The notes under the pieces were generated by a model, which did no database searches, was not told where the DNA came from, and saw nothing but the letters and a program-made list of their open reading frames with translations. 64,000 nt of DNA from Lepiota brunneoincarnata (taxonomy: Eukaryota; Basidiomycota; Agaricomycetes; Agaricales; Agaricaceae), in assembly GCA_023014365.1 (NCBI GenBank), contig JAEBUN010000038.1:1-64000 (forward strand), written 5' to 3'. Both the position numbers and the translations under genes were made by a program. Positions 1 to 17,270 of this stretch are shown piece after piece (the first letter of the stretch is position 1; every line of letters begins with the position of its first letter).

Positions 1-1242
1 TCATCTGGTGCAAATACATCTGGCCTAGTGTCTGCACCTTTGTCAAAGATTTCTGTAAGTCTTGCATCACCTGTATGAGGTCTAAACCCCAGCACCACCA
101 CCCCTATGGTCTCCTCAAGCAACTCCCCATCCCCGAACGCCCTTGGAACTTAATCTCCATGGACTTCATTGAGAAACTCCCCATCTCTTCTGGCTACGAT
201 GCCATCCTAGTAATAGTCAACAGACTCACCAAGCAATCCTTATTCATCCCCACCTACGATACTGTCACCTCCTCCAACCTTGCCTGCCTATTCATCCTCC
301 ACATCTTCTCCAAGCACAGTGTACCCAAACATGTTACCTCCAACCATGGCTCCAAATTTGTCTCTCACTTCTTCCACTCATTGGGACAAGCCCTCAACAT
401 GAAACTACACTTTACTTTGGGCTACCACCCAGAAGGTGATAGACAGACAGAATGCACTAACCAGACCCTGGAACAATATCTCTGGGTCTATTGTAACTAC
501 CAACAGGACAATTGGTCCAAATTACTACCACTAGCTGAGTTTGCTTACAACAACACTCCTAGTGCCACCACTGGTATCTCCCCATTCTTTGCTAGTAAAG
601 GATACCATCCGAACATCACAGTTCATCCTGAATGTGATCTTGCCTCTGCTTGGGCCCACCATTTTGCGGTTGATCTTGACAACCTACATACATACCACCT
701 TGAAGTCAGAAATAGCATTAGCCCAGCAATGATACCAGACCTCCACTGATGCCCACCATCTCCTGGCTCTGGACTTCAAGGTTGGGCAAAAAGTGTTCGT
801 TAAAGCTCAGTTCTTCTGCACCACCCATCCCTCCAAAAAACTCTCCAAAAAGTTCCTTGGACCCTATGAGGTCATCACCCAAGCAGGTACCCACTCCTTC
901 ACCCTCTGACTCCCCAACTCCATACATGGAGTACACCCAGTTTTCCATGTTTCTATGCTTGAACCAGCCACACCTAATACCATACCTGCCCAATCAGACC
1001 CGCCACCTGCGCCAGTTTCTATTGATGGTGAACCCAAATACGAGATTGCTTGCATCATCGACTCAAAGATTGATCGGTGCCACACATGCAAACTCCTCTA
1101 CAAAGTCATTTGGTTAGGTTATAAAGACACTGAAGAAGAGTCTTCATGGTTACCAGCTACCAAGCTTGAACATGCCATAGATCTAGTAGAGGCTTTCCAT
1201 TCCTCTTACCCTGCTAAGCCTGGCCCCCTCCGTTCACTCTGA
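1..1242 (+). pseudogene. Decayed GypA pol: integrase core, GPY/F region and chromodomain
   Basis: The product would be the C-terminal third of a Ty3/gypsy polyprotein, which inserts the cDNA and, through the chromodomain, is thought to target chromatin. Visible parts in order are the end of the zinc-binding region (CMRSKPQ), the catalytic core (MDFIEKLP with the first Asp, then a changed second-Asp segment), the TEC(T)NQTLEQ segment with the third acidic residue, and a chromodomain-like end (YKVIWLGY). A 4-bp insertion near 688-697 shifts the frame, and a CGA to TGA change near 908 adds a stop. In the second-Asp segment Asp has become Asn (SNHGSKF against SDRGSEF in the intact copy). The gene is dead. 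Confidence 0.88.
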
Positions 1243-1320
1243 GTTTTCTACTGATCACCCATCACACCAAGAAACAACAAGATTTATCAAAAAAAAAAAA
1301 CAACACAAACTACTACCAAA

Positions 1321-2347
1321 TTACTTATTGTCTCCAGAGGGGCCCAGTGACTGTGCAGCATCATCTTCCATCAAGCCCTGCACCTCCTCTTCTAAGGCAG
1401 CCCTGACACTCTCCTCTGAACCCTCTGTCTCCATAACATTTCCACTCAACCAATTATGATCCACCTGCACCTCCCAATACTGTAGTTGCTCATAATGGCC
1501 CACCACCTGCTCCACCTTGTCCACCTTCTCCCCCAATCAAGTGATGGACCACTTGGGTTGTACCTCCAGGATGTTGACCTTGACAGTCTCCTGGTGCTTT
1601 TCCTCAATGAGCCATTTCAACTCTACAACACCCACTGATTAGCATACATCATAATACAGGACTCCTTACTTACCCCCAAACTGTTGGCCCAACAACCCGC
1701 TGGTCCCACTCAGCTCCGTCTCCTCTTGGCTTCCACATCATTTCTTCATTTTACTACACTGACAGCAACTTCTGGTGTTACTAAAACCCTATCAGTATGT
1801 ATCCCAGAAACCTTCAAAAAACAACTCACCTGCCAGCGACCTCACACTGAACCCCATCTCGCTCACACCTCCAGCAGGGGTTCTCACCCCCGAATATGTT
1901 TGCATGGCCCCATCACAGGGCCATCCTCACCCTTGCTTTTCCCTTACCCCCTGTATCCCCAGAGTCCTCTTCCTCCTCCTCTTCCTCCTCATTTTCTGTC
2001 TTGTCACTATCCATGTAATCAGATTCCGACTCCTCCGTATCTACCTCCATCAGTTCTTTCAGCAGGTGGCTCAGCAATGCCCCCGCAGTAGTTGCAATGA
2101 GCCTGGCCCAAATTGTCTGACACTCTGCCTCAGCAGCCTTGTCTTGTTGCTACCTGATCTCTTCCACCAGGTGCTCCCTCACCTGCTCCTCTGCTTGTCG
2201 CTGACACAGCGCTATCAGCCACTGCCACTCCTCCTCCTCCAACCTCTCAATTTCCAGTTGCTCCCGCTCCTCTTGCTCAGCCTTCTCCCTCAGCAGTTGC
2301 GCCTTGTGCTCCACAGCAGTTGGTTGTTGGGATGGTTATCTGCTCAT
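1321..2347 (-). pseudogene. Decayed copy of the GypA antisense Zn(II)2Cys6 gene
   Basis: This region is collinear with the intact gene at 5811-6899. The start codon is at 2347-2345 and is followed after three codons by TAA. All six zinc-cluster cysteines are still encoded, as CWRCERDGVQC in exon 1 and CCQCSKMKK-stop-C in exon 2, where CGA has become TGA. Both introns are in the same places: 1829-1781 (49 bp, GTGAGT to TAG) and 1673-1623 (51 bp, GTAAGT to TAG). Intron 1 has diverged more from the young copy than the flanking exons have. An A/T-rich TATA-like motif lies upstream near 2400-2406. The conserved splice sites here support the splice model of the intact gene. Confidence 0.8.
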
Positions 2348-2480
2348 GGGAGTATGGGGTTAAGTTGTGCTCTCCCAACCTGAACCAGTTCACTCCGTTT
2401 TTATACCCTGGCAGAGTTTTCCGATGGGCCCCAGTCTAGACCACCTAGGGCCTTGAGGCTTGGCCCTAAAGGGGGGGCAC

Positions 2481-3146
2481 TGTCATATCCATGCCAAATC
2501 CAGAGCTTAACCATTATACTTTGGCTTCTCGACTGCACATGGTGCTCCACATAACAACCCTCTGCCCTCCAACTCGGCCCCGACTTGCTCCAACTGTAAC
2601 CCATTGCCCCAATCACACAACCATCTCCGCATGTGCTGTGGTTACCTGACCCTCGGTGCTACTTCCCAGTTCTCCATTCTCCATCTGTAACCAAGAGACG
2701 TTATCAGTCTCCATACCTGTACCGGTCTCCATTCCATTCATAATCCATTTGTAATCCATTTGTAACCATATTGGTCTCCACTTCACTCCATCCATAGTCA
2801 GTATGAGTCATAGTTCATAAGACCAGTAGTATATATACCATATGTACTTGACTTGTACTCCTCAGTCTGATAATCAAATCAAGCAGCAGACCAGCTCCCT
2901 GTTCCATATCCTCTCTTCTCTTCTGCCTCACTCTGCTTTGGCCCCAACCACCTGAAATACAGACCTTGGACAGTAAGAGGGCAAAGCACATAAGCTGAGG
3001 CTGCAAGTCCAACCCCCCACCTGAAGTACTCTGCCTTAGTCCCGAAGTCTACATATGTACTGACTTTGCCCCATCCCCCAGTTACCTTATATTAAGGATA
3101 CTACCCCGACCCTCCACTTTGGTCCCAACCCGCACTGGCTCTAACA
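2481..3146 (+). repeat. 3' LTR of GypA copy 1 (666 bp)
   Basis: It begins TGTCATATCC and ends CTCTAACA, and aligns along its length with the 651-bp LTRs of the intact copy. The 11-base motif AGTCTGATAAT (2864-2874) downstream of a TATATATA box is retained. It shares non-CpG variants with the LTR at 17324-17840 that the young copy lacks, including an extra 'attacaaatgg' unit and 'caggtggt' in place of 'caggaagt'. It is followed directly by ATAAC, the 5-bp target duplication, and then Tc1-A coding sequence. Confidence 0.92.
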
Positions 3147-4148
3147 ATAACTCAATGCAGCCATATTCTTTCTATTTTGGACAAAGGCCACTCTGCTACC
3201 CATATTGCTTTTACCACTGGTCTTGGCCTCAGCACTATATCTTGTCTTTGCTCCAAACATTGTTCAACACTTTCAAAGTCACTTGGTGGCCACCCAACCA
3301 AGCTTTCTGTTGGCAATATTCAATATGCCACTCATCTTATCACATCCCACAAGGCTGAAAATGCCTCCCAAATCACCAGAACCCCCTGTACTGTCATTGA
3401 CCAACCTCTATCCTCCAAAACAGTTCACAGAGCACTCAAAAAAGCTGGAATGAAGGCTGTAGTCAAGTGGAAAAGGCATAAACTCTCTGTTATACACAAG
3501 AGGAAAAGATTGGAGTGGGCAGAGGCACATGCAGACTGGACCCTGGAAGACTGGAAGAGGGTGGTTTGATCAGATGAGACCAAAATCAATTGCTTAGGGT
3601 CAGATAGCAGGGTTTGGGTCTGGAAAAGAGCAGGAAAGAGGCTTAGTGATAGGCTGGTGCAGGAAACCACAAAGTTTGGAGGAGGTTCTATCCTGGTATG
3701 GGGCTGTATGCTGTGGGAGGGTCCAGGGTTGGCAGCCAAGATTAATGGTAAGATGGATGGTAATCTATTTGTCACCATTTTGGGGGATGAACTCAAGGGG
3801 AGCCTGGAGTGGTATGACAAAGAGATGGAGAATATTGTCTTTCAACAAGATAATGATCCCAAACATAGGTGCATAAAGGCTCAAAAATGGTTCAAAGCAG
3901 CTGAAATGGAGTTTATGGTATGGCCTCCACAATCTCCAGACCTTAATCCAATTGAACATTTGTGGACTCACCTTAAAATCAAGTTAGGGGAGTATGACAC
4001 TCCACCTCAGGGGATGAAAGAATTATGGGATAGGACACAAAAGGAATGGGATCAGATTCCAGCAGAAGTGTGTCAGAATCTGATAGAGAGTATGCCTGAT
4101 AGGGTTCAAGCTGTCTTGGATGCTAGGGGAGGGTATACAAAGTACTAA
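3147..4148 (+). pseudogene. Tc1-A transposase, broken
   Basis: This is a DD34E transposase pseudogene related to the open frame at 48473-49459. The helix-turn-helix part is read from about 3177. A TGA at 3568-3570 replaces the Trp of the conserved WSDETK motif, and the frame then continues to the stop at 4146-4148. QQDNDPKH (second Asp) and SPDLNPIEHLW (catalytic Glu) are intact. This copy keeps the ten residues after the first catalytic Asp that the copies at 42529 and 48235 have lost. Confidence 0.85.
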
Positions 4149-5027: not shown

Positions 5028-5678
5028 TGTTAGAGCCGGTGCGGGTCGGGACCGAAGCGGAGGGTCGGGGTGGTATCCTTGGTATAAGGTAACCGGGGGA
5101 CAGGGCGAAGTCAGTACGTAGACTTCGGGACCGAGGCGGAGTACGTCGGGCGGGGGGTTGGACTTGCGGCCTCAGCTTATGTGCTGTGCCCTCCTACTGT
5201 CCTAGTCCGTATTTCAGGAAGTCGGAGCCGAAGCGGAGCGAGGCAGAAGAGAGGAGAGGATATGGAACAGGGAGCTGGTCCGCTGCTCGATTCGATTATC
5301 AGACTGAGGAGTACAAGCCAAGTACCTACGGTATATATACTACTGGCCTTACGAACTATGACTCGTACTGACTACGTGCGGAGTGAAGCGGAGACCCATA
5401 TGGTTACAAACGGATTACAAACGAAATGGAGACCGGTACGGGTATGGAGACTGGTAACGTATCTTGACTACGGACGGGAAATGGAGACGGGGAAATAGAG
5501 ACAGCGAGGTTCAGGTGACCACGGCACGTGTGGAGGTGGTCGCGTGATCGGGGCAGTGGGTTGCGGTCGGAGTGAGTCGGGGCCGAGTCGGAGGGCAGAG
5601 GGTTGTTGTGTGGAACACACGTGGAGTCGAGAAGCCGAAGTTTAAGTGATTAGACTTATAGTTGGCATGGATATGACA
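5028..5678 (-). repeat. 3' LTR of GypA copy 2 (651 bp)
   Basis: On the plus strand it runs TGTTAGAGCC to GGATATGACA. It differs from the 5' LTR at five sites, all C/T or G/A, four of them in CpG. The region just outside (5679 onward) is the polypurine tract of the element. Confidence 0.95.
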
Positions 5679-5692
5679 GTGCCCCCCCTTTA
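5679..5692 (-). other. Polypurine tract of GypA copy 2
   Basis: On the sense (minus) strand this reads TAAAGGGGGGGCAC directly before the 3' LTR, the expected place for second-strand priming. The same tract precedes the LTR of copy 1 at 2468-2480. Confidence 0.75.
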
Positions 5693-5753
5693 GGGCCAAG
5701 CCTCGAGGCCCTAGGCGGTCCAGACCGGGTCCATCGGAAGACATCCGCCCGAG

Positions 5754-5760
5754 TATAAAA
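5754..5760 (+). promoter_or_regulatory. TATA box of the antisense gene
   Basis: TATAAAA lies 51 bp upstream of the ATG at 5811, between the polypurine tract and the gene. It points away from the LTR and opposite to gag-pol. An equivalent A/T-rich motif is kept in the decayed copy near 2400-2406. It would give the gene its own promoter inside the retrotransposon. Confidence 0.6.
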
Positions 5761-5810
5761 ACCGGCGAACTGGTTCGGTCCGGAAATACACAACTTGACC
5801 TCCTACCACC

Positions 5811-6899
5811 ATGAGCAGCCAATCGTCTCGACAACCAACCGCGGCGGAGCGCAAGGCGCAGTTACTGAGGGAAAAGGCGGAGCAGGAGGAGCGGATGCGG
5901 CTGGAGATCGAGAGGTTGGAAGAGGAGGAACGGCGAGAGGAGGAACGGCGATTGGCGGTAGAGCGCCAAGAGGAAGAACGGCGACGGATGATTGAACTGC
6001 GTCAACGGCAAGCGGAGGAGCGGGCAAGGGAGCGACGGGCGGAAGAGATCAGGCGACAGCAAGAGGAAGCTGCTGAGGACGAACGTCGGGCGATCCGGGC
6101 CCGACTTGTCGCGATGACTACGACGGCTTCATCCAGCCGCCTGCCGGAGCAGCCTATGGAAGTCGACCATGAAGAGTCCGACCCGAATTACACGGGCGAT
6201 GACGCGGCGAGGGACGAAGAGGAGGAGGAGGAGGAGGAGGACTCCAAAGGTTCGGAGGTAAAGGGAAAGGGAAAAGGAAAGGCGAGGGCGGCCCCGCGGC
6301 GGGGCAACAAACACGTATTCGGAGGCGATAACCCGTGCTGGAGATGTCAGCGGGATGAGGTCCGGTGCGAGATTGCCGGCGGGTAAGTAAATACAAGAGT
6401 TTCTACGATGATAATTGCTGACAAAGGCCCCAGCAACACTAGGAGTTGCCGACGGTGTAGCAAAATGAAGAAACGATGTGGGGGTCAAGAAGAGACGGAG
6501 CCGAGCGGAGCCGGAGGTTTGTCGGGCCAGCAATTCGAAGGTGAGTAAGGAATCCTGTATTATGATGGATGCCAATTGATGGACCTTGTAGAGTTGAAAC
6601 GGCTCATCGAAGAAAGGCACCAGGAGACCGTCAAGAAAATCTACACCCTGGAGGTGCGAATTGAGCGGTCCATCGCTCGGTTGGGGGAAAAGGTCGACAA
6701 GATGGGGTCGCTTGCTGGCCGCTACGAGCAACTACGGCGTTGGGAGGCTCAGGTGGACGGAAATTGGTCGAGTGGAAATTTTTCAGAGACGGAGGGTTCG
6801 GAGGGGAGTGTCGGGCCCGCTTCGGAGGAGGAGGTGCAGGATTTGATGGAAGAAGTGAATGGGTCGCCCGGGCTCTCTGGAGACGACACCGATAGGTAG
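5811..6899 (+). CDS. Antisense, spliced Zn(II)2Cys6 protein carried inside GypA (328 aa)
   Basis: Three exons: 5811-6382, 6434-6540 and 6592-6899, with 51-bp introns (GTAAGT..CAG and GTGAGT..TAG). The product has an Arg/Glu-rich helical or coiled-coil segment (about residues 12-105), an acidic run (about 126-146), a basic KGKGKGKARA patch, then a zinc cluster formed only after splicing: Cys176, 179, 186 and Cys196, 199, 206. The spacing is C-X2-C-X6-C-X9-C-X2-C-X6-C, the pattern of fungal Zn(II)2Cys6 DNA-binding domains. A second helical segment and an acidic C-terminus follow. The gene converges on pol with 69 bp between stop codons and is present in decayed form in copy 1. A nuclear DNA-binding role is inferred from the motif only; whether it regulates the element or host genes is unknown. 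Confidence 0.82.
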
Positions 6900-6968
6900 T
6901 TGTACGGGGTTGTTTTTTGGGTTTGTTTAATACATGGTTGTTTCTTGGTGTGATGTGTGGTCAGTAAC

Positions 6969-9900
6969 TCAAAGTGAGTGAAGAGGACCAGGCTTTGCAG
7001 GGTAAGAGGAATGAAAAGCCTCTACGAGATCTATAGCATGTTCAAGCTCGGTGGCTGGCAACCACGAGGACTCTTCTTCAGTGTCTTCGTAACCTAACCA
7101 GATGACTTTATAGAGGAGCTTGCACGCGCGGCGCCGATCGATCTTAGAGTCGACGATGCGGGCAATCTCGTATTCTGGTTCACCGTCAATGGAAACCGGC
7201 GCGGGCGGCGGATCCGATCGGGCGGGTATGGTGTTAGGTGTGGCTGGTTCGAGCATGGAAACATGGAAGACTGGGTGTACTCCACGCATGGAGTCAGGAA
7301 GTCGGAGTGTAAGGGAGTGAGTACCTGCTTGTGCAATGATCTCATAAGGCCCAAGGTACTTTTCGGAGAGTTTTTTGGAGGGACGGGTGGTGCGGAAGAA
7401 TTGGGCTTTCACAAATACCTTTTGTCCAACCTTGAAGTCCGGGGCGGGGAGTCGGCGGGCGTCGGCGGAGGTCTGATAACGTTGCTGGGCTAGCGCTATT
7501 TCGGACTTCAAGGTGGTGTGTAGGTCGTCGAGGTCAACAGCAAAATGGCGGGCCCGAGCGGAGGCGAGATCGCGTTCAGGATGAACTGTGATGTTCGGAT
7601 GGTATCCTTTATTAGCGAAGAGTGGGGAGATACCGGTGGTGGCACTAGGAGCGTTGTTGTAAGCAAACTCAGCTAGGGGTAGTAATTCGGACCAATTGTC
7701 CTGTTGGTAGTTACAATAGACCCGAAGGTATTGTTCGAGGGTCTGGTTGGTGCGTTCCGTTTGTCCGTCGCCTTCTGGATGGTAGCCCGAGGTGAAATGT
7801 AGCTTCATGTCAAGGGCTTGTCCCAATGAGCGGAAGAAGTGGGAGACGAATTCGGAGCCGCGGTCGGAGGTAACATGTTCGGGTACGCCGTGCTTGGAGA
7901 AGACGTGGAGGACGAATAGGCGGGCGAGGTCGGAGGAGGTGACGGTATCATAAGTCGGGATGAAGAGGGATTGCTTGGTGAGTCTGTCAACGATTACTAG
8001 GATGGCGTCGTAGCCGGAGGAGGCGGGGAGTTTTTCGATGAAGTCCATGGAGATTGAATTCCAAGGGCGTTCGGGAATGGGGAGTTGTTTGAGGAGACCG
8101 TAGGGACGGTGGCGCTGGGGTTTAGACCTCATACAGGTGACACAAGACTTACAGAAATCCTTGACGAAGGTGCGGACACTAGGCCAGGTGTATTCGCGCC
8201 GGATGAGTTCTAGCGTTTTGTTCTGACCGAAGTGTCTGGCTAGGACATGATCATGCTTGTACTGGAGGACCCGAAGTCGGAGATTGTCGGCGTCAGGGAC
8301 GTAGATTCTGTCGTCTAGGAGGAGGAAACCTTTATTGTTAACTGACCAACGGCCTTCTGGGCTAGCAAGGTGGGCGGAAGCGGTCGGATCCGCTGGTAGG
8401 GCGGCGAGGATATCGCGGTGTAGCTGGTCGAGATCCATGACTACAGCTGCGCGAAGGGAAGGGGCGTAAAGAGTGGTGGCACGGACGGAGGCCGCGAGTT
8501 GTTCATGAGTGAACACAGGCCGGAAGTTGTGCGGGTTGACCGATGCATAGTCGCTATTCCCCCCTTTAGGGTAGACGTCCCATCGTCTAGTTAGGGCGTC
8601 AGGCTTGGTACCGAGGCGGCCGGGTCGGAAACGGATGACGAGGTGGAACTGGGATAGGAACTCGGACCAACGAGCTTGGCGGCGAGTGAGGATTTTGGTG
8701 GTGCAGAAGTATTCAAGGTTTTTGTGGTCGGTGACTACATCAATAGTAAGAGGGGCACCCTCAAGATAGTGCCGCCAGATACGAAAAGCCTCGAATATCG
8801 CCAGGAGTTCCTTGTCGTGGGTGTCATAATTAAGTTCGGCCGTGTTAAAGGTGCGGGAATGGAATGCAACGGGGTGAACCTCTCCGTCATCGGTGATGAT
8901 AGAGAGGATAGCCGCAAGGGCGTAGTCGGAGGCGTCGGTCTCGACAATGATCTGAGCATCGGGGGCCCAAGGAGTGAGGACGGGGGCGGATATGAATGCT
9001 TCTTTCAGGGAACTGAAGGATTCGCGGCATTCGTCGGTGAAATTCCATTTCACATCTTTGCGGGTGAGGCGGGTGAGCGGAACGACGATGTCGGAGTAAC
9101 CGTGAATGAAGCGACGGTAGAAATTGGCGAAACCTAAGAAGGACTGGATGTCCTTGACTTTCTTAGGTTCAGGCCACTCCTGGATGGTCTTGACCTTGGA
9201 TTGGTCCATTCGGAGACCGTCGGGGGAAAGAATGTAGCCGAGGTATTCCACTGTGTCAGAGTGGAATTGGCATTTGTCGGGGCGGGCGTATAGGCCGTGT
9301 TGTCGGAGCCGCTTGAGGACCTCCTTGACTTGGTCACGATGGATACTATGATTGTCGGAGTATATCAGAATGTCGTCAAGGTAAATAGTAACGCAGACGT
9401 CGAGCATGTCCTTGAATATATCGTTCATGAACCGCTGGAAGGTGGCGGGGGCATTGGTGAGGCCGAAAGGCATAACCATCCATTCGAAGGAGCCGTAGCG
9501 GGTCCGAAAGGCGGTCTTCCATTCGTCGCCGTCAGCAACGCGGACTAGATGGTAAGCGTGACGGAGGTCGATTTTGGTATATACGCGAGCTTTGCGAGGG
9601 GAGTCTAAGAGGTCGGAGATGAGCGGAAGGGGGTAGCAATCCTTCTTGGTAATATGGTTGAGACCTCTAAAATCAACACATAAACGGAGGGAGCCATCCT
9701 TTTTCTTGACGAAGAGGACCGGGGCTCCATGAGGAGAAGTGGAGGGGCGAATGAAGCCAATAGATAAATGTTCGTCAATGAAATCACGTAGAGCTCCAAG
9801 CTCTGATTGTGAAAGGGAGTAAATGGTACCGACCGGAGGCTGACCGCCATCCTCTAGGTTAATCTGGAGGTCGTAAGGGCGGTGTGGAGCAAGTGTGTCA

Positions 9901-10772
9901 GCACGCGATTTACTGAAAACGTCAGCGAACTTGTGGTATTCCTCGGGGATAGACGAGAGGTCAGGCGGTTCCTCGGAGACAGAAGAAGACGCGGCCGATG
10001 CGGAGGCGGCGGAAAGATTGATTCGGAATTGTTGGGAGCCAGGGAGCTTGGCAGCGCGGATAAAGGCAGGAGCGTTTATCAAGGAGATGTGCGGTTTTGC
10101 AAGGGGGACAGATTGGGACGAGGTCCCGGACAGGGGTGGTGAACCTAGGTCAGGAGAGTCAGGGGCGGCCATAGGCGGAGCCGATGCGGGTGCGACGCAG
10201 GTAGAGACGGAAGCAGGATTCTCGAGTAGGGATGGCCGGAAAGTAATACTGCCCAAAGCCCAGTCAATCAACGGATTGTAGCGGGTGAGCCAGTTGTGTC
10301 CTAAGACCACAGAACAGGAAGAGTCGAGCCGGGTGACATAAGTGTCCAAAATGATAGATTCACCGGAGGGGAAAGATACAGGCAGTTGCGCAAGCTCCGT
10401 AATGTAGGCATTTGAGGTCCCATCAAATAACCGAAGTTCAATAGCTGGAATGGACGAGGTTGGAATACTATGAGAACGAACAAAAGATGAGTCCACAAAA
10501 CAGTGAGTAGAACCACTATCAACAAGGGCTTTGAAAGGAGAAAGAGAAGAGAAATCAGAACTAACTACATTGTCCGTTGTAGAAATCGGGTCCGAAGCGG
10601 AGAGTACGGAAGCGGAGACAGAAGATACAGAAGTAATTAAAGGAGAAGTTAATGTGATATGAAAGGAGTTCGGGTCGGAAAGAGCGGACGCATTGAGACG
10701 GAAACTCTCTGGAGCACAGCAGAGTTCAATGCGATCCTCAGTCTGTGCAGAGGCCTGAGGACCGCCGACTAT
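6969..10772 (-). CDS. pol: GypA pol polyprotein: protease, RT, RNase H, integrase, chromodomain
   Basis: Open for about 1267 codons in the -1 frame relative to gag, with no ATG near its beginning, so it is most likely made as a Gag-Pol fusion. In order: aspartic protease (VDSGSTH, DSG at 10512-10520), reverse transcriptase with YLDD at 9372-9383, RNase H (ETDASDYALAA), zinc-binding region (HDH..C..C, near 8130-8260), integrase core (MDFIEKLP near 8040, SDRGSEF near 7855, GQTERTN near 7755), the GPY/F module (YLGPYEI) and a chromodomain (about 6990-7180, YKVIWLGYED). All catalytic acidic residues seen are intact. It should copy the element RNA and insert the DNA. It is the only intact retroelement pol in the window. 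Confidence 0.95.
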   Translation of the reverse strand: MVGGPQASAQTEDRIELCCAPESFRLNASALSDPNSFHITLTSPLITSVSSVSASVLSASDPISTTDNVVSSDFSSLSPFKALVDSGSTHCFVDSSFVRSHSIPTSSIPAIELRLFDGTSNAYITELAQLPVSFPSGESIILDTYVTRLDSSCSVVLGHNWLTRYNPLIDWALGSITFRPSLLENPASVSTCVAPASAPPMAAPDSPDLGSPPLSGTSSQSVPLAKPHISLINAPAFIRAAKLPGSQQFRINLSAASASAASSSVSEEPPDLSSIPEEYHKFADVFSKSRADTLAPHRPYDLQINLEDGGQPPVGTIYSLSQSELGALRDFIDEHLSIGFIRPSTSPHGAPVLFVKKKDGSLRLCVDFRGLNHITKKDCYPLPLISDLLDSPRKARVYTKIDLRHAYHLVRVADGDEWKTAFRTRYGSFEWMVMPFGLTNAPATFQRFMNDIFKDMLDVCVTIYLDDILIYSDNHSIHRDQVKEVLKRLRQHGLYARPDKCQFHSDTVEYLGYILSPDGLRMDQSKVKTIQEWPEPKKVKDIQSFLGFANFYRRFIHGYSDIVVPLTRLTRKDVKWNFTDECRESFSSLKEAFISAPVLTPWAPDAQIIVETDASDYALAAILSIITDDGEVHPVAFHSRTFNTAELNYDTHDKELLAIFEAFRIWRHYLEGAPLTIDVVTDHKNLEYFCTTKILTRRQARWSEFLSQFHLVIRFRPGRLGTKPDALTRRWDVYPKGGNSDYASVNPHNFRPVFTHEQLAASVRATTLYAPSLRAAVVMDLDQLHRDILAALPADPTASAHLASPEGRWSVNNKGFLLLDDRIYVPDADNLRLRVLQYKHDHVLARHFGQNKTLELIRREYTWPSVRTFVKDFCKSCVTCMRSKPQRHRPYGLLKQLPIPERPWNSISMDFIEKLPASSGYDAILVIVDRLTKQSLFIPTYDTVTSSDLARLFVLHVFSKHGVPEHVTSDRGSEFVSHFFRSLGQALDMKLHFTSGYHPEGDGQTERTNQTLEQYLRVYCNYQQDNWSELLPLAEFAYNNAPSATTGISPLFANKGYHPNITVHPERDLASARARHFAVDLDDLHTTLKSEIALAQQRYQTSADARRLPAPDFKVGQKVFVKAQFFRTTRPSKKLSEKYLGPYEIIAQAGTHSLTLRLPDSMRGVHPVFHVSMLEPATPNTIPARSDPPPAPVSIDGEPEYEIARIVDSKIDRRRACKLLYKVIWLGYEDTEEESSWLPATELEHAIDLVEAFHSSYPAKPGPLHSL

Positions 10773-10777
10773 TTTTC
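10769..10777 (-). promoter_or_regulatory. Putative -1 frameshift site at the gag stop
   Basis: On the sense strand the gag end reads GGAAAAATAG: Glu GAA, Lys AAA, then stop TAG. Pol is open in the -1 frame through this point (GGA AAA ATA) and for many codons upstream. Slippage on the A5 run just before the stop would join gag to pol. The same ten bases are conserved in the decayed copy at 14558-14567. No downstream structure was assessed. Confidence 0.55.
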
Positions 10778-12169
10778 CGAGCTCGGGAGAGCCGGCGCGT
10801 CTGTCTCGGGGAGCTGAGCCTGTCGGCCTTTAGCCTTGGCATCAGGGAATTTTTTCTTGTCGCAGTTAGCAGCCCTGTGATTGGGATCTGCGCAGACAAG
10901 GCAGAGGTTATTGTCGAAACGTCGTTGACGTTCCTCGGGGGTTAATTTACCGTCCTTACCAAGTTTACTAGTAAGGTCGGATTTGGGCGGGGCCGATTTC
11001 TGACCGGCGGACGGGTTGGGCGGATTGCCCTTGAGGCTGGTGTTGGGCGTGCTGCCTCTGTTATTATTGGCAGGCTTGGCGGCAGGTTGCAGGTTGGTCG
11101 AGGTGGAAGGGGATGGGTTACCTCCAGGTTTCCTAGAGGCGGTCGGGTCCGAAACGGATTTGGCGCGGGCCTTCTCGCGTTGGCGTTCCCAGTAGCGAGC
11201 ATCGATCTTCATCGCTGCTGCTCGCATTTCGATGAAGGTATCGGGCTTGCCGTCGGGCCGATTGGACAGAATGTCCTGGATGCGGTCGGGGAGGCCTTTG
11301 TAGTAGCGGTGACAGAATACTTCGTCACCCCAGTGGAGTTGGCCAGCTAGGCGGAGAAAGTCGACGTTGTAGACGGCGATCTTCTCGTCATAGCGCATTC
11401 GGAGGGAGTCGAGCTGCTCAGCAGCTTCTCCAGTCGGATCCGCGGGACCGAAATTGGTCTGCAGTTCCAGGGTGAACTGGTCCCAGTCCTCGATCCAGTC
11501 GTGTATTATTCTGTGGTTGTCGGCCTCGTCGAGGCCGATTTCGAAGTGTTGCTGTGCCACGCCTGTGAGGTATGTCAACGCGAAGTTGACCTTGGTGGCG
11601 GGGATAGCGAACTGGGCCGGGTTAGTACGGAAATAGAGCCGACATTGGAAGAGGAAGGGTTTGAGTTTGGCGGGGTCGGAACCTGTAAAGATGTCAGGTT
11701 CGCGAGCTTTGGTACGGGGAGATCGAGGAGGCTGTGGGGCTTGAGAGTTCCCACGGCCGTCCATTTGGTCGGCTATGCGTTGGAAAACTCGGAGTATGAG
11801 TCTATCATGGTCGTCTCGGGTGTTGCCAGGTGGGATGTTGTTGTTGTTGTCGCCGTTGTCTGATGGTTCGTCGTCGCCCGGGGGCCCGTCCCCATTGTCA
11901 GGGTAGTCGTCGGGATCACCAGGGTCGCTGGGATCAGGATTGGGGTCGGGGCCGTCGTCGGGGCCGTCGGGAGTCCGGAATACTGAAGGTTGTATATCTT
12001 CAGAGAAACAGTCTGGGGTCGAGGGTGCGATCGATTGTTGGTGAGAGCGAGAAGCCCTCGGGGAGTCGGGTTGCAGTTCCTCGGAAGGAGGTTGTCGAGT
12101 GATGCGTTTGCTACGGCGAGCGGCTGGAGTTACCAGAGTGCGAGTACGGGTAACTGTTCGAGAGACCAT
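10769..12169 (-). CDS. gag: GypA gag: capsid-nucleocapsid (466 aa)
   Basis: Structural protein of the virus-like particle. The N-terminal region is basic and then rich in Pro, Asp and Asn (about residues 65-125). The central part matches the Retrotrans_gag type (about 150-300, with FLFQCRLYF and HWGDEVFCHRYYKGLP). A single CCHC zinc knuckle, CLVCADPNHRAANC, is at about 423-436, near the C-terminus, and would bind RNA. The ATG at 12169-12167 is 54 bases downstream of the 5' LTR. The frame is intact, while the copy at 14558-17270 is broken. Confidence 0.93.
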   Translation of the reverse strand: MVSRTVTRTRTLVTPAARRSKRITRQPPSEELQPDSPRASRSHQQSIAPSTPDCFSEDIQPSVFRTPDGPDDGPDPNPDPSDPGDPDDYPDNGDGPPGDDEPSDNGDNNNNIPPGNTRDDHDRLILRVFQRIADQMDGRGNSQAPQPPRSPRTKAREPDIFTGSDPAKLKPFLFQCRLYFRTNPAQFAIPATKVNFALTYLTGVAQQHFEIGLDEADNHRIIHDWIEDWDQFTLELQTNFGPADPTGEAAEQLDSLRMRYDEKIAVYNVDFLRLAGQLHWGDEVFCHRYYKGLPDRIQDILSNRPDGKPDTFIEMRAAAMKIDARYWERQREKARAKSVSDPTASRKPGGNPSPSTSTNLQPAAKPANNNRGSTPNTSLKGNPPNPSAGQKSAPPKSDLTSKLGKDGKLTPEERQRRFDNNLCLVCADPNHRAANCDKKKFPDAKAKGRQAQLPETDAPALPSSEK

Positions 12170-12209
12170 GGTTAGAAAAATTCAGAGTGTGGTGGACAGG
12201 AGGAGTTTG

Positions 12210-12220
12210 AGTCTGATAAT
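12210..12220 (-). other. Self-complementary primer binding site of GypA
   Basis: Two bases after the 5' LTR the sense strand reads ATTATCAGACT. Its exact reverse complement, AGTCTGATAAT, lies in the LTR about 27 bases downstream of a TATATATA box (12490-12500), where the transcript should start. This is the arrangement known from Tf1 self-priming, in which the first 11 bases of the RNA pair with the primer site. No tRNA match is obvious. Confidence 0.75.
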
Positions 12221-12222
12221 AC

Positions 12223-12873
12223 TGTTAGAGCCGGTGCGGGTCGGGACCGAAGCGGAGGGTCGGGGTGGTATCCTTGGTATAAGGTAACCAGGGGACAGGG
12301 CGAAGTCAGTACGTAGACTTTGGGACCGAGGCGGAGTACGTCGGGCGGGGGGTTGGACTTGCGGCCTCAGCTTATGTGCTGTGCCCTCCTACTGTCCTAG
12401 TCCGTATTTCAGGAAGTCGGAGCCGAAGCGGAGCGAGGCAGAAGAGAGGAGAGGATATGGAACAGGGAGCTGGTCCGCTGCTCGATTCGATTATCAGACT
12501 GAGGAGTACAAGCCAAGTACCTACGGTATATATACTACTGGTCTTACGAACTATGACTCATACTGACTACGTGCGGAGTGAAGCGGAGACCCATATGGTT
12601 ACAAACGGATTACAAACGAAATGGAGACCGGTACGGGTATGGAGACTGGTAACGTATCTTGACTACGGACGGGAAATGGAGATGGGGAAATAGAGACAGC
12701 GAGGTTCAGGTGACCACGGCACGTGTGGAGGTGGTCGCGTGATCGGGGCAGTGGGTTGCGGTCGGAGTGAGTCGGGGCCGAGTCGGAGGGCAGAGGGTTG
12801 TTGTGTGGAACACACGTGGAGTCGAGAAGCCGAAGTTTAAGTGATTAGACTTATAGTTGGCATGGATATGACA
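12223..12873 (-). repeat. 5' LTR of GypA copy 2 (651 bp)
   Basis: Same length and termini as the 3' LTR at 5028-5678, with five transitions between them. Its outer end abuts decayed GypA pol sequence at 12874 without a matching target duplication. Confidence 0.95.
12500..12534 (-). promoter_or_regulatory. GypA LTR promoter and inferred transcript start
   Basis: TATATATA at 12527-12534 is followed 26 bases later on the sense strand by AGTCTGATAAT, starting at 12500. Spacing and the match to the primer site suggest transcription starts at or very near position 12500. The box and the 11-mer are both conserved in the LTRs at 2481-3146 and 17324-17840. Confidence 0.6.
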
Positions 12874-14559
12874 CTTTGTGGGTGAGGTAAGTGAGCAAAA
12901 TGATGATGTTGGAGTAACTGTGAATGAAGCAACGGTAGAAATTGGCGAAACCTAAGAAGGACTGGATGTCCTTGACTTTCTTGGGTTCCGGCCACTCCTG
13001 GATGGTCTTGACCTTAGATTGGTCCATTTGGAGACCATCAGGGGAAAGGATGTAGCCAAGGTATTCCACTGTGTCAGAGTGGAACTGGCATTTGTCAGGG
13101 CAGGCATATAGACTGTGTTGTCAGAGCCGCTTGAGGACCTCCTTGACTTGGTCATGATGGATACTATGATTGTCAGAGTATATCAGAATGTCATCAAGGT
13201 AGATAGTAATGCAGACATTGAGCATGTCTTTGAATATATTGTTCATGAACTGCTGGAAAGTGGCCAGGGCATTGGTGAGGCTGAAAGGCATGACCATCCA
13301 TTTGAAGGAGCCATAGTGGGTCTGAAAGGTGGTCTTCCATTGGTTGCCGTCAGCAACATGGACAAGATGGTAGGCATAATGGAGGTCAATTTTGGTATAT
13401 ACGTGGGCTTTGCAAGGGAAATCTAAGAGGTCAGAGATGAGTGGAAGGGGATAGCGGTCCTTCTTGGTAATACGATTGAGACCTCTAAAATCAACACATA
13501 AGTGGAGGGAGCCGTCCTTTTTCTTGACAAAGAGGACCAGGGCTTCATGAGGAGAAGTGGAAGGGTGAATGAAACCAATGGACATATGTTTGTCAATAAA
13601 ATCACATAGAGCTCCAAGCTCTGATTGTGAAAGGGAATAAATAGTACTGACCGGAGGCTGACCACTGTCCTCTAGGTAAATCTGGAGGTTGTAAGGGCAG
13701 TGTGGAGTAAGTGTGTCAGCACACAATTTACTGAAAACATTGGCAAACTCATGGTATTCCTCAGGGATGGATGAGAGGTCAGCTGGGTCATCGGAGATAG
13801 AAGAGGACATGGCTGATGTGGAAGTGGCAGAGAGGTTGATTCGGAATTGTTGGGAGCCAGGGAGCTTGGCAGCATGGATAAAGGCAGGGGCATTTATCAG
13901 GGATATGTGCAGTTTTGCAAGGGGGACAGATTGGGACAAGGTCCCAGACAGGGGTGGCCATAGGTGGGGCCAATGTGGGTATGATGCAGGTAGAGACAGA
14001 AGCAGGATTCTCAAGTAGGGATGGCTGGAAAGTAATACTGCCCAAAGCCCAGTCAATCAATGGATTGTAGTGGGTGAGCCAGTTGTGTCCTAAGACCACA
14101 GAACAGGAAGAGTCAAGCTGGGTGACATAAGTGTCCAAGATAATAGATTCACCAGAGGGGAAAGATACGAGCAGTTGTGCAAGCTCTGTAATGTGGGCAT
14201 TTGAGGTCCCATCAAATAACCAAAGTTCAATAGCTGGGATGGACAAGGTTGGAATACTATGAGAACAAACAAAAGATGAGTCCACAAAACAGTGAGTAGA
14301 ACCACTATCAACAAGAGCTTTGAAAGGAGAAAGAGAAGAGAAATAAGAACTAACTACATTGTCCATTGTAGAAAGTGGGTCCAAATCGGAGAGTTTGGAA
14401 GTGGAAACAGAAGATAAAGGAGTAACTAAAGGAGAAGTTAATGTGATATGAAAGGAGTTCGGGTTGGAAAGAGTGGACACATTGAGATGGAAACTCTCTG
14501 GAGCACAGCAGAGTTCAATGTGATCCTCAGTCTGTGCAGAGGCCTGAGGACCACCGACT
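12874..14559 (-). pseudogene. Decayed GypA pol: RT and protease part
   Basis: Collinear with 9056-10771 of the intact copy. YLDD is still read near 13188-13199, and the protease segment VDSGSTHCFVDSS is preserved near 14290-14330. Frame changes near 13070-13125 and 13790-14060 split it into three open pieces. Some Arg codons of the intact copy read His, Gln, Cys or Trp here, as expected from CpG decay. It is truncated at 12874 by the LTR of copy 2. Confidence 0.88.
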
Positions 14560-17270
14560 ATTTTTCCAAGCTTGGGAGAGCTGGCACATCTGTTTCAGGA
14601 AGCTGAGCCTGTCAGCCTTTAGCCTTGGCATCAGGGAATTTCTTCTTGTTGCAGTTGGCAGCCCTGTGATTGGGATCTGCGCAGACAAGGCAGAGGTTAT
14701 TGTTGAAATGTTGTTGATGTTCCTCAGGGGTTAATTTACCATCCTTACCAAGTTTACTAGTAAGGTTGGATTTGGGTGGGGCCGATTTCTGACTGGCAGG
14801 TGGATTGGGTGGATTGCCCTTGAAGTTATTATTGTTGGGGGTGCTGCCTTTGTTGTTACTGTTGGCAGGCTTGGTGGTAGGTTGGGTGTTGGTTGAGGTG
14901 GATGGGGATGGATTGCCTCCAAGTTTCCTAAAGGTGGTTGGGTCTGAAGTGGCTTTGGTGCAGGCCTTCTCACATTGGCACTCCCAGTAGCAAGCATCAA
15001 TCTTCATTGCTGCTGCTCACATTTTGATGAAGGTGTCAGGCTTGCTATCAGGCCGATTGGACAGAATGTCCTGGATGTGGTCAGGGAGGCCTTTGTAGTA
15101 GCAGTGACAGAATACTTCATCACCCCAGTGGAGTTGGCCAGCTAGATGGAGGAAATTGACATTGTAAACAGCAATCTTCTCATTGTAGTGCTGATACGCC
15201 GATTTCATGCCTATACATGAATTCCATACTCTGGAACAATTCTCTACATAGAATCATTGGCTATATCATTAAAGAACTCTATAGAGGATTGGTACTATAT
15301 CCCGTAGTAGCCAGTTTGACTGAATTGGGGATACTCGAGCCTTGGACATGTTCAAACCAGTTCATTATCACTAAGCTTAGTGATCCAAGCTATCAGAATG
15401 CTCTCCGGAGGGATTCAGGACTCTACATAGCCTATCGAGTATACCCCAGTCGCATCAAGGGACCTTATGAGCAGTTTTCTGATGAACCCAAATGCATTTG
15501 AACATAAAAGAATGTACCTAGCGGCTGTCGCAGGCATATTACATCTATAGCAAGTTCAATAATGATGACCGGACCATGGAATGGAACATCCAACATTCAG
15601 GAAGCAATACCCAATGCCCAAAACCCTAGAAATATCAAAGACTCCTAATTAACAAGTGCTTTGTGGGTCCCAGCACTTTGGCATACTGCTTAACTGAGAT
15701 TAATTACAATGGATCAAGGGATTGTCCATCCACTATACATTCCAATCATAATTGATCCGGAAACTTAATGCACTCATGTGGATGCAGAATAATGCAGACA
15801 AGCACAGAACACATCTGGCTGGATTGCCATTTGTTAATCAGAGAAAAACCCATAACCCAGGGTGAGGTAGAAATGCTGCCGAACCTTCCAAAATGTTCTA
15901 CAGTGCCTGTAACAATTAAGCTTATTGTTTTCTATTTCATATTTACTATCTCTCACATGTATCTAAACAATATAAATATGGTCACGCTTGTTCGTGGAGA
16001 AGGAAGAGGTCTCACCCCCACTTCCACATGCAAGTCTGCGAGCCGTGATCAAGAACGGTTTCAGAGGGCTATTTAGTGTGCGTCGTTAAGTGTGATTTCT
16101 TCGGTCGTCGACCAACCCAGAGACAGAGACAGAGACCAGAGTTCAGAGTTTAGAGTTCCAGAGTGCTAGAGACAGAGACAGAGACAGAGACCAGAGTTCA
16201 GAGACCAGAGACCAGAGACCAGAGACCCAGCGCTTTGAATTGACAGGGATTGTCCTTTCATTGTTGCACTGTACAGCTAAGATAACTTCAACGGCTGTTT
16301 GTTAACCTCTAAAAACACTACTCTCTTGAATTTTGCTGTCAGAATGCACCCCCAGAACACCCTAAAAGATGAAACTGTTCATTATCTATCTCATTCCACT
16401 TGTATTAGCTTAAGCTTATCGAATTGCGGCTAAGCTTAGTGAAAACAAGCCCACTATCTATATTAAAACCTACAAATGTTTCTACCTTTTCAGCGCATTT
16501 GGAGGGAGTTGAGCTGCTCAGCAGCTTCTCTGGTTGGATCTGCAGGACCAAAATTGGTCTGCAGTTCCAGGGTGAACTGGTCCCAATTCTCAATCCAGTC
16601 ATGTATTATTCTGTGGTTGTCGGCCTTGTCAAGGCTGATTTTGAAGTGTTTCTGTGCCACACCTGTGAGGTATGTTAACGCGAAGTTGACCTTGGTGGCA
16701 GGGATAGCAAACTGGGCTGGGTTAGTATGGAAATAGAGTTGGCATTGGAAGAGGAAGGGTTTGAGTTTGGCAAGGTCAGAACCTGTAAAGATGTCAGGTT
16801 TGCGAGCTTTGGTATGGGGAGTTTGGGGGGGCTGTGGGGCTTGAGAGTTCCCATGGCCATCCATTTGGTCGGCTATGCATTGGAAAACTTGGAGCAGGAG
16901 TCTATCATGGTCATCTCGGTTGTTGCCAGGTGGGATGTTGTTGTTGTTGTCGCTGTTGTCTGATAATTTGTCATCACCCCAGGGGCCCGTCCCCATTGTC
17001 AGGATAGTCATCAGGATCACCAGGGTTGCTGGGATCAGGATTGGGGTCAGGGCCTTTGTCGGGGCCATCAGGGGTCTGGAATAGTGAGGGTTGTATATCT
17101 TTGGAAAATCAGTCTGGAGTCAAGGGCATGACCAATTGTTGGCAAGAGCGAGAAACCCTCAGGAAGCTGGGTTGCAGTTCCTCAGAAGGAGGTTGTTGAG
17201 TTATGTGTTTGCTACAGCAAGTGGCTGGAGTTACCAGAGTGCAAGTACAGGTAACTGTTTGAGAGACCAT
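14558..17270 (-). pseudogene. Decayed GypA gag, interrupted by Rep1.3
   Basis: Start ATG at 17270-17268, stop TAG at 14560-14558. The coding sequence is split by the 1301-bp repeat at 15192-16492 and by further frame damage in the N-terminal third (about 17070-17270). The zinc knuckle CLVCADPNHRAANC is unchanged from the intact copy. The frameshift motif before the stop is also conserved. Confidence 0.85.
15192..16492 (+). mobile_element. Rep1.3 copy 1 (1301 bp, 4-bp target duplication)
   Basis: An insertion in gag that is also present at 58827-60129. It starts TGATACGCCGA and ends CTACCTTTTCA. It is flanked by GTGC (15188-15191) and GCGC (16493-16496), a 4-bp target duplication with one CpG transition; removing the insert and one copy restores gag. 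It contains a 94-codon frame (15217-15501), a 102-codon frame (15768-16076), a TATA-like ATATAAATATG (15969-15979) and a purine-rich 'agagac' microsatellite (16118-16230). There are no long terminal inverted repeats. It could be a solo LTR or a short non-autonomous element; I do not recognise the family. Confidence 0.75.

Follow-up and report, generated by a model that had tools for sequence, protein, structure and literature searches.

The 64,000-nt window analysed here, the whole stretch of Lepiota brunneoincarnata DNA under study, contains a Ty3/gypsy chromovirus that carries, on the strand opposite to pol, what is almost certainly a selected, element-encoded gene, whose transcript is predicted to be spliced. 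We reach this view because across copies of the element the exons of the gene have low dN/dS values while the introns between them diverge. The predicted product is a 328-residue protein with a six-cysteine, zinc-cluster-like motif.

The host element, delimited by its LTR pair and its Pfam domains, occupies positions 5028-12873 on the minus strand. By sequence comparison its 5' LTR (12223-12873) and 3' LTR (5028-5678), each 651 bp long and on the minus strand, are 99.2% identical, with five differences over 651 bp. Internally, on the same strand, frame analysis and Pfam place a gag frame with a Retrotrans_gag domain (10769-12169, with an ATG at 12169 and the stop-to-stop frame reaching 12181), which overlaps a pol frame of 1286 amino acids from stop to stop (6969-10829). 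Protease, RT, RNase H, integrase, SH3_Tf2-1 and chromodomain all score above their Pfam cut-offs in pol, and the LTR pair, together with gag followed by the order PR-RT-RH-IN with a chromodomain, identifies the element as a Ty3/gypsy chromovirus. A polypurine tract, recognised by eye, adjoins the 3' LTR at 5679-5693 (minus strand). Two bases past the 5' LTR begins a putative 11-nt primer-binding site (12210-12220, minus strand), proposed from its complementarity to the element's own LTR at 12490-12500, a partner that starts 34 nt after a TATATA. We take this 11-nt self-complementary arrangement to be that of self-primed Tf1, and the element is, on its sequence, probably Tf1-like and self-primed. 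With Tf1-type chromoviruses it shares the 11-nt self-complementary primer site, SH3_Tf2-1 and the chromodomain, and it differs from them in having the antisense gene. Among named fungal sequences, those nearest to pol residues 360-900 come from Agaricales (Leucocoprinus birnbaumii, 82% identity; Agaricus bisporus, 78%), and the pol relatives listed in the protein database are mostly 69-83% identical.

The element abuts an older pol copy at 12875-14618 that is 83-85% identical to pol, and its flanks (GCAGA and CTTTG) differ, so that no target-site duplication is found at the 5028-12873 insertion, a lack likely due to recombination with neighbouring copies. Positions 1-3146 belong to a copy of this element that is older and inverted, with an LTR of about 84% identity at 2399-3146; the antisense gene recurs in it, in decayed form, at 1256-1949 on the minus strand (74% identity over 708 aligned positions). 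Positions 3096-4148 hold a transposase-like frame, divided by a single stop into frames 3096-3569 and 3570-4148, which we presume, from a motif, to be of Tc1/mariner type.

The antisense gene itself spans 5811-6899 on the plus strand, between pol and the 3' LTR and opposite to pol in orientation, which is the place and orientation of an aORF-3R. In its spliced frame, exon 1 (5811-6382, plus strand, 572 nt, ATG at 5811) encodes a predicted N-terminal helix of about 95 residues, an acidic stretch, a basic patch and cysteines 1-3 of the cluster; exon 2 (6434-6540, plus strand, 107 nt) encodes cysteines 4-6 and a linker; and exon 3 (6592-6899, plus strand, 308 nt, stop at 6897-6899) encodes a predicted helix of about 60 residues, possibly a coiled coil, followed by an acidic tail. 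Both predicted introns are 51 nt long and of GT-AG type on the plus strand, the first (6383-6433) running from GTAAGT to CCCCAG with a CTGAC branch-point-like motif and the second (6541-6591) from GTGAGT to TTGTAG. Intron 1 contains an in-frame stop and splits the cysteine motif (6336-6479, plus strand, in the spliced frame), so that C-X2-C-X6-C-X9-C-X2-C-X6-C arises only once this intron is spliced out. A TATAAAA sequence is found at 5754-5760 (plus strand), 57 nt upstream of the ATG. Because the polypurine tract lies on its LTR side, the presumed promoter would be an internal one and not part of the LTR. These features had been proposed in the initial annotation, and its coordinates for a three-exon antisense gene, its TATA box and its claim that a canonical cysteine cluster forms only upon removal of the 51-nt intron are all borne out.

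Since a gene model of this kind gains or loses weight with its recurrence, we examined the copies of the gene in the same genome, covering 55.6 Mb in 95 contigs. All counts of matches are lower bounds, being drawn from the best 40 of 202 candidates for the DNA query and the best 150 of 1253 for the RT query; a 134-aa piece gave at least 325 matches from the best 150 of 293 candidates, where one copy may yield several matches. Reading 72 loci that contain the gene, eight of which were repeats of places already in the set, gave 64 distinct gene copies; L001-L060 had been selected for their high match scores and L071-L082 for their divergence. The three-exon structure recurs in the 64 copies. In every one the antisense gene is followed immediately by pol in opposite orientation, and 62 have an LTR upstream, so the expected linkage to gypsy pol was found throughout, in this one genome. 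Intron 1 is bounded by GT-AG in 62 copies and by GC-AA in the remaining two, intron 2 by GT-AG in all 64. Intron 1 measures 47, 48, 49 or 51 nt and has a CTGAY 15-19 nt from its 3' end in every copy, and intron 2 measures 48-52 nt and has a CTRAY in 20 of them. TATAAA stands 56-65 nt upstream of the ATG in 56 of the 64, and the six cluster cysteines are likewise retained in 56.

The spliced frame is fully open in 36 of the 64 copies, a fraction that describes this chosen set of related, non-independent copies and is no genome-wide estimate. The start is missing from its place in L074, L075, L077, L079 and L082, and other copies have stops or frame losses. In L015, L019, L027 and others, in-frame stops and R-to-W/Q changes resemble, by eye, C-to-T decay at CGN codons. 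A locus of another gypsy-like family, L095 (G000 C10:469500-474500), has a Copia-like frame about 250 nt past pol, both labels being assigned by eye.

Could the open frames be chance products and the introns imaginary? The sequence is rich in long frames, and the sense strand of all 36 intact copies also has one that is open from stop to stop over 156-264 aa (median 212). That frame is weakened as a rival coding frame because it spans introns of changing length. In the antisense gene, in contrast, the introns change in length by 1-4 nt and the frame is kept, 61 of the 64 copies have an exon 2 of 107 nt, and the splice sites are constant. In addition, the selection signal described next is strongest in the spliced frame, even if a mirror frame echoes it, so that chance is hardly a credible explanation.

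To quantify constraint, pairwise dN/dS was calculated by the Nei-Gojobori method for eleven representatives picked for open or nearly open frames, among which L072, L076 and L081 contain one or two stops and L080 lacks an aligned stop. Values for all pairs range from 0.12 to 0.44, with the maximum in a close pair. When the window copy is compared with the ten other representatives, exon dN/dS is 0.12-0.36 (0.12-0.37 over all its comparisons with other subfamilies), and in the comparisons with the ten the differences reach 28 of 51 sites for intron 1 and 22 of 50 for intron 2. Random relocation of the substitutions in nine pairs gave mean values of 0.69-0.75, with the lowest of 300 randomisations per pair at 0.35-0.50; a stricter randomisation that kept base and CpG status gave means of 0.71-0.75 in seven pairs, with the lowest of 200 per pair at 0.38-0.49. 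Within each tested pair the observed dN/dS lies below every randomised value. The randomised copies acquire 3.2-6.5 stops on average against none observed, a deficit that adds little here because open copies had been picked. In a six-frame comparison the signal is found only in the spliced frame and, more weakly, in the mirror frame of the opposite strand (0.18-0.44), an echo that is expected because the third codon positions of the two frames pair with one another. Values for the two shifted frames are 1.1-2.3.

The same pattern is seen over shorter times. Among the young copies L001-L016, dN/dS is 0.40 against 0.57 after randomisation (0.50-0.67, 50 rounds), and their pooled pairs hold 45 stops against a randomised average of 79; the value near 1 that the initial annotation had named as speaking against its gene was thus not observed. 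A B-type group of seven copies gives 0.31 against 0.56 (0.49-0.70), with 18 stops against 47, and a third group of 16 copies, for which the estimate stands without a randomised control, gives 0.39. For the last 476 codons of pol (fewer in L021), six pairs yield 0.05-0.07. Judged by 0.12-0.37 against 0.05-0.07, the antisense gene is constrained and yet evolves faster than pol. It therefore displays the protein-level constraint by which an aORF-3R is recognised.

These results bear directly on the idea that the antisense transcript itself acts, as dsRNA or siRNA that limits the element, the reading frame being a by-product. Such a transcript would complement about 1.1 kb of the sense RNA, and a dsRNA or siRNA role has been discussed for plant elements in the part of PMC7264820 available to us. 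An RNA role, however, needs no reading frame, whereas exon dN/dS falls far below the roughly 0.7 of randomised copies while the introns change freely, and the young copies hold fewer stops than their randomised counterparts. We accordingly regard an RNA-only function as very unlikely and retain the reading of a protein-coding gene.

How long the element lineage has held the gene was gauged from diverged relatives, namely ten of the 14 bottom rows among the 150 scored RT relatives, at 84-87% RT identity. Remains of the gene lie beside eight of these ten, in one case as a 38-residue piece, and two are without it. Seven of these stretches were inspected in detail: they are decayed and keep the exon order, and in six an ATGAG start is preceded by TATAAA at a distance of 56-59 nt. 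Because eight of the ten diverged RT relatives examined hold it, the gene appears to be about as old as the sampled lineage in this genome, and this share among the diverged stretches represents the retention in most copies of a lineage that marks an aORF-3R.

A host zinc-cluster gene recently captured by one element family would account for the spliced, host-like structure, and the genome has 25 Zn_clus matches from which such a gene might have come. The presence of the gene in the sampled subfamilies down to those most diverged relatives, its position next to pol in every copy of the set, and a spliced protein that stays under the Zn_clus cut-off speak against this origin, and we consider recent capture largely refuted and highly improbable.

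Searches further afield returned no relatives of the gene. A search of 5.8 billion proteins with spliced residues 160-310 gave none at E <= 0.001 among 454 candidates. An alignment of the C-terminal parts of seven subfamilies, with the best 7988 candidates scored at E <= 10, gave no foreign homologue in a search whose candidate list may have been crowded by acidic and basic runs; its sole match was a 106-aa exon-3 frame, 100% identical and shown like the window's own proteins. Fungal proteins are present in the database, as the Agaricales relatives found by the pol control query show, though the absence of homologues is still weak evidence. A pol scan of viral_contigs, a collection without fungal genomes as such, gave no match, and one of genome_contigs, again without fungal genomes as such, gave two, L083 and L084. 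L083 is a fungal-like element in a MAG record, with a pol 44% identical; only about 360 nt separate its pol from a gag-like frame, and no antisense gene was found in it. L084 is a bacterial sequence that matches weakly, at 30% identity across 126 residues.

What kind of protein the gene encodes was approached by structure prediction and profile searches. Single-sequence AlphaFold models were made of the exon-1 and exon-3 frames separately, from strongly charged sequence and with the second half of the cluster in neither. The exon-1 frame is modelled as one helix over residues 11-106, with block pLDDT values of 95-98 up to residue 100, the exon-3 frame as one helix over residues 3-65, and the first half of the cluster has pLDDT below 50. 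Long helices are thus predicted to flank a zinc-cluster-like domain with a basic patch, an architecture from which dimerisation, zinc binding and DNA binding of the product may be inferred. A search of solved structures gave matches at chance level, the best being troponin I coiled coils (E 0.15); two fission-yeast zinc-cluster chains, one named Pho7, cover the cluster region at E 1.8 and 2.9.

Zn(II)2Cys6 domains follow the spacing C-X2-C-X6-C-X5-12-C-X2-C-X6-8-C, and the antisense product conforms to it in 56 of the 64 copies. The Pfam Zn_clus (PF00172) cut-off of 21 bits was not reached in any scan: the window product scores 7.6 bits, the whole L051 product 14.7 and a first-half piece from a sister copy 16.6, the best value. 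All seven aligned members match Zn_clus weakly (best E 0.011), and the window's own first-half piece and the second-half piece each give no match when searched alone. In two of three first-half pieces, cysteines 1-3 fall on profile positions 15-32, which form the second half of the domain. Moreover, the loop between cysteines 2 and 3 is not basic (QRDEVR, QRDGAP or ERDGVQ), and that of the second half reads SKMKKR. In four host zinc clusters (the pattern occurs in four of ten loci), the first loop has two to five basic residues and the second none to three. The offset of the Zn_clus alignment and the basic loop in the second half raise a suspicion, a thin hint at sequence level, that the halves of the cluster are exchanged relative to the usual Zn(II)2Cys6 order. 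In fungal Zn(II)2Cys6 regulators a helix follows the cluster; the antisense product resembles them in its canonical six-cysteine spacing and in the helix after the cluster, and differs in scoring below the Pfam cut-off, in having its basic residues mainly in the second half and in its extra N-terminal helix. The Zn(II)2Cys6 identity given in the initial annotation is therefore upheld for the spacing and left in doubt by the profile score and by the apparent exchange of halves.

The gene also appears to be a mosaic. The window copy was set against eleven others, one segment at a time. Seven of them (L024, L025, L026, L031, L051, L054 and L057) are near-identical to the window copy in exon 3 (0-1% difference) and at the start of pol (0-4%), and differ from it by 22-24% in exon 1 and at about half of intron 1. 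L018 has the reverse pattern, with 1% difference in exon 1 and 28% in exon 3, and L080 differs from L051 by about 3% in the first half and by 25% in exon 3. The change-over point falls within exon 2, 3' of the cluster and before the putative coiled coil. Because the LTR is again similar to that of the window copy in L051, L054 and L057 (0-7% difference), the exchanged segment seems to be a cassette that reaches roughly from the polypurine tract as far as the cluster. Template switching in mixed particles would be the ordinary explanation of such mosaic genes. A co-change of U3 with the N-terminal half, present in L024-L026 and L031, is absent from L051, L054 and L057 and is not claimed.

Antisense genes at this place have precedents, and the comparison sets out what is new. 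Boty-like elements of Botrytis cinerea have an antisense gene, brtn, between pol and the 3' LTR, according to papers that cite Zhao et al. 2011. Boty is likewise a fungal LTR element with a chromodomain (PMC4227169, available part) and an extra antisense gene at the same place; its host is an ascomycete, and brtn is compared here by its description only. Plant LTR elements carry antisense genes at the same place too, among them gene23 of Grande, which is driven by a promoter of its own and encodes a nuclear protein (PMC7264820, in the part available). As described there and in passages of PMC11963269, the plant genes resemble ours in place, orientation, presence in most copies and conservation, and TRP28 in being predicted to bind DNA; they differ in having other domains, and Retand does not belong to the chromoviruses. 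Neither 'intron' nor 'zinc' appears in the Retand paper, and the main text of Muszewska et al. 2011 (PMC3248453) contains none of the words 'antisense', 'zinc' or 'intron'. In titles and abstract openings, with few subscription journals covered, no fungal element with a spliced or zinc-cluster antisense gene was found. The novelty that the initial annotation had supposed for fungal gypsy elements accordingly does not extend to antisense genes as such, which were in print with brtn, and holds, within the sources covered, for the zinc-cluster type. New here relative to the known antisense genes, as far as sequence can tell, are the predicted splicing, the zinc-cluster motif and the mosaic exchange of halves.

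A further comparison is with HBZ of HTLV-1, which is also encoded by an antisense gene near the 3' LTR and is also of a dimerising, DNA-binding protein type, here as a prediction (PMC3185765, available part). The same source describes spliced antisense transcripts for HTLVs and repression by HBZ of Tax-driven sense transcription. As described there, HBZ is a bZIP protein and not a zinc cluster, and its transcription starts in the LTR, whereas the TATA box here is internal; no bZIP family is found among the Pfam matches of the window up to E 10.

We propose that the antisense gene is a protein-coding accessory gene of a probably self-primed fungal chromovirus lineage. It would be transcribed from the internal TATA box, opposite to gag-pol, and both introns would then be spliced out. 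The genomic sense RNA would carry both introns through reverse transcription, which they would survive because they are introns on the antisense strand only; the initial annotation had argued that antisense introns are tolerated by a retroelement in this way, and both introns are indeed present in all 64 copies, as expected if the sense RNA alone is reverse-transcribed. The product may dimerise via its helices and bind zinc and DNA; in the nucleus it may then act at the promoter or chromatin of its own element, either to adjust sense transcription or to keep expression protected. Since the product of this selected gene looks able to pair and to bind DNA, the element may make its own regulator. 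As a whole, the account of a lineage accessory gene with its own TATA box, two introns and a DNA-binding-like product acting on its own promoter or chromatin seems to us probable; its last step, nuclear action on promoter or chromatin, is a tentative proposal made by analogy with HBZ and with the nuclear gene23 of Grande. In the LTR, the commonest 9-mer (one mismatch allowed) occurs five times against three to five times in 20 shuffles, so no target motif is over-represented by this measure. GA[AG]GCGGAG, considered as a binding motif, is present at four places in the LTR, where shuffled sequences average 0.03, but it had been picked by eye and fails the unbiased test, and was rejected.

The protein might be real and yet serve integration, nuclear import or targeting, in conjunction with the chromodomain integrase or the pre-integration complex, instead of transcription. 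Its basic patch and DNA-binding appearance would fit such a task, and the available part of PMC7264820 discusses whether plant antisense proteins take part in retrotransposition and in entry into the nucleus. A separate antisense promoter and splicing, both predicted, nevertheless suggest expression outside the sense RNA cycle, and the analogue HBZ is a transcription regulator according to the part of PMC3185765 at hand; this alternative appears to us somewhat unlikely. In a more specific version of the regulator proposal, which we consider improbable, the element would encode a regulator that is sequence-specific and has a zinc cluster with swapped halves, and the gene would evolve by cassette exchange, its promoter-to-cluster half and its coiled-coil half being shuffled between lineages at one place in exon 2. 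If that version were true, elements within one genome could change DNA target and dimer partner independently of each other and compete as mutual regulators.

At the level of sequence, this is a clear case of an intron-bearing antisense gene under selection in a retroelement lineage with many near-identical copies, and its conserved splice sites make expression easily testable in ordinary RNA-seq. Such genes may be mis-annotated as host transcription factors in fungal genomes, and the gene described here provides a route to the function of antisense accessory genes in LTR elements, including those of plants and Boty.
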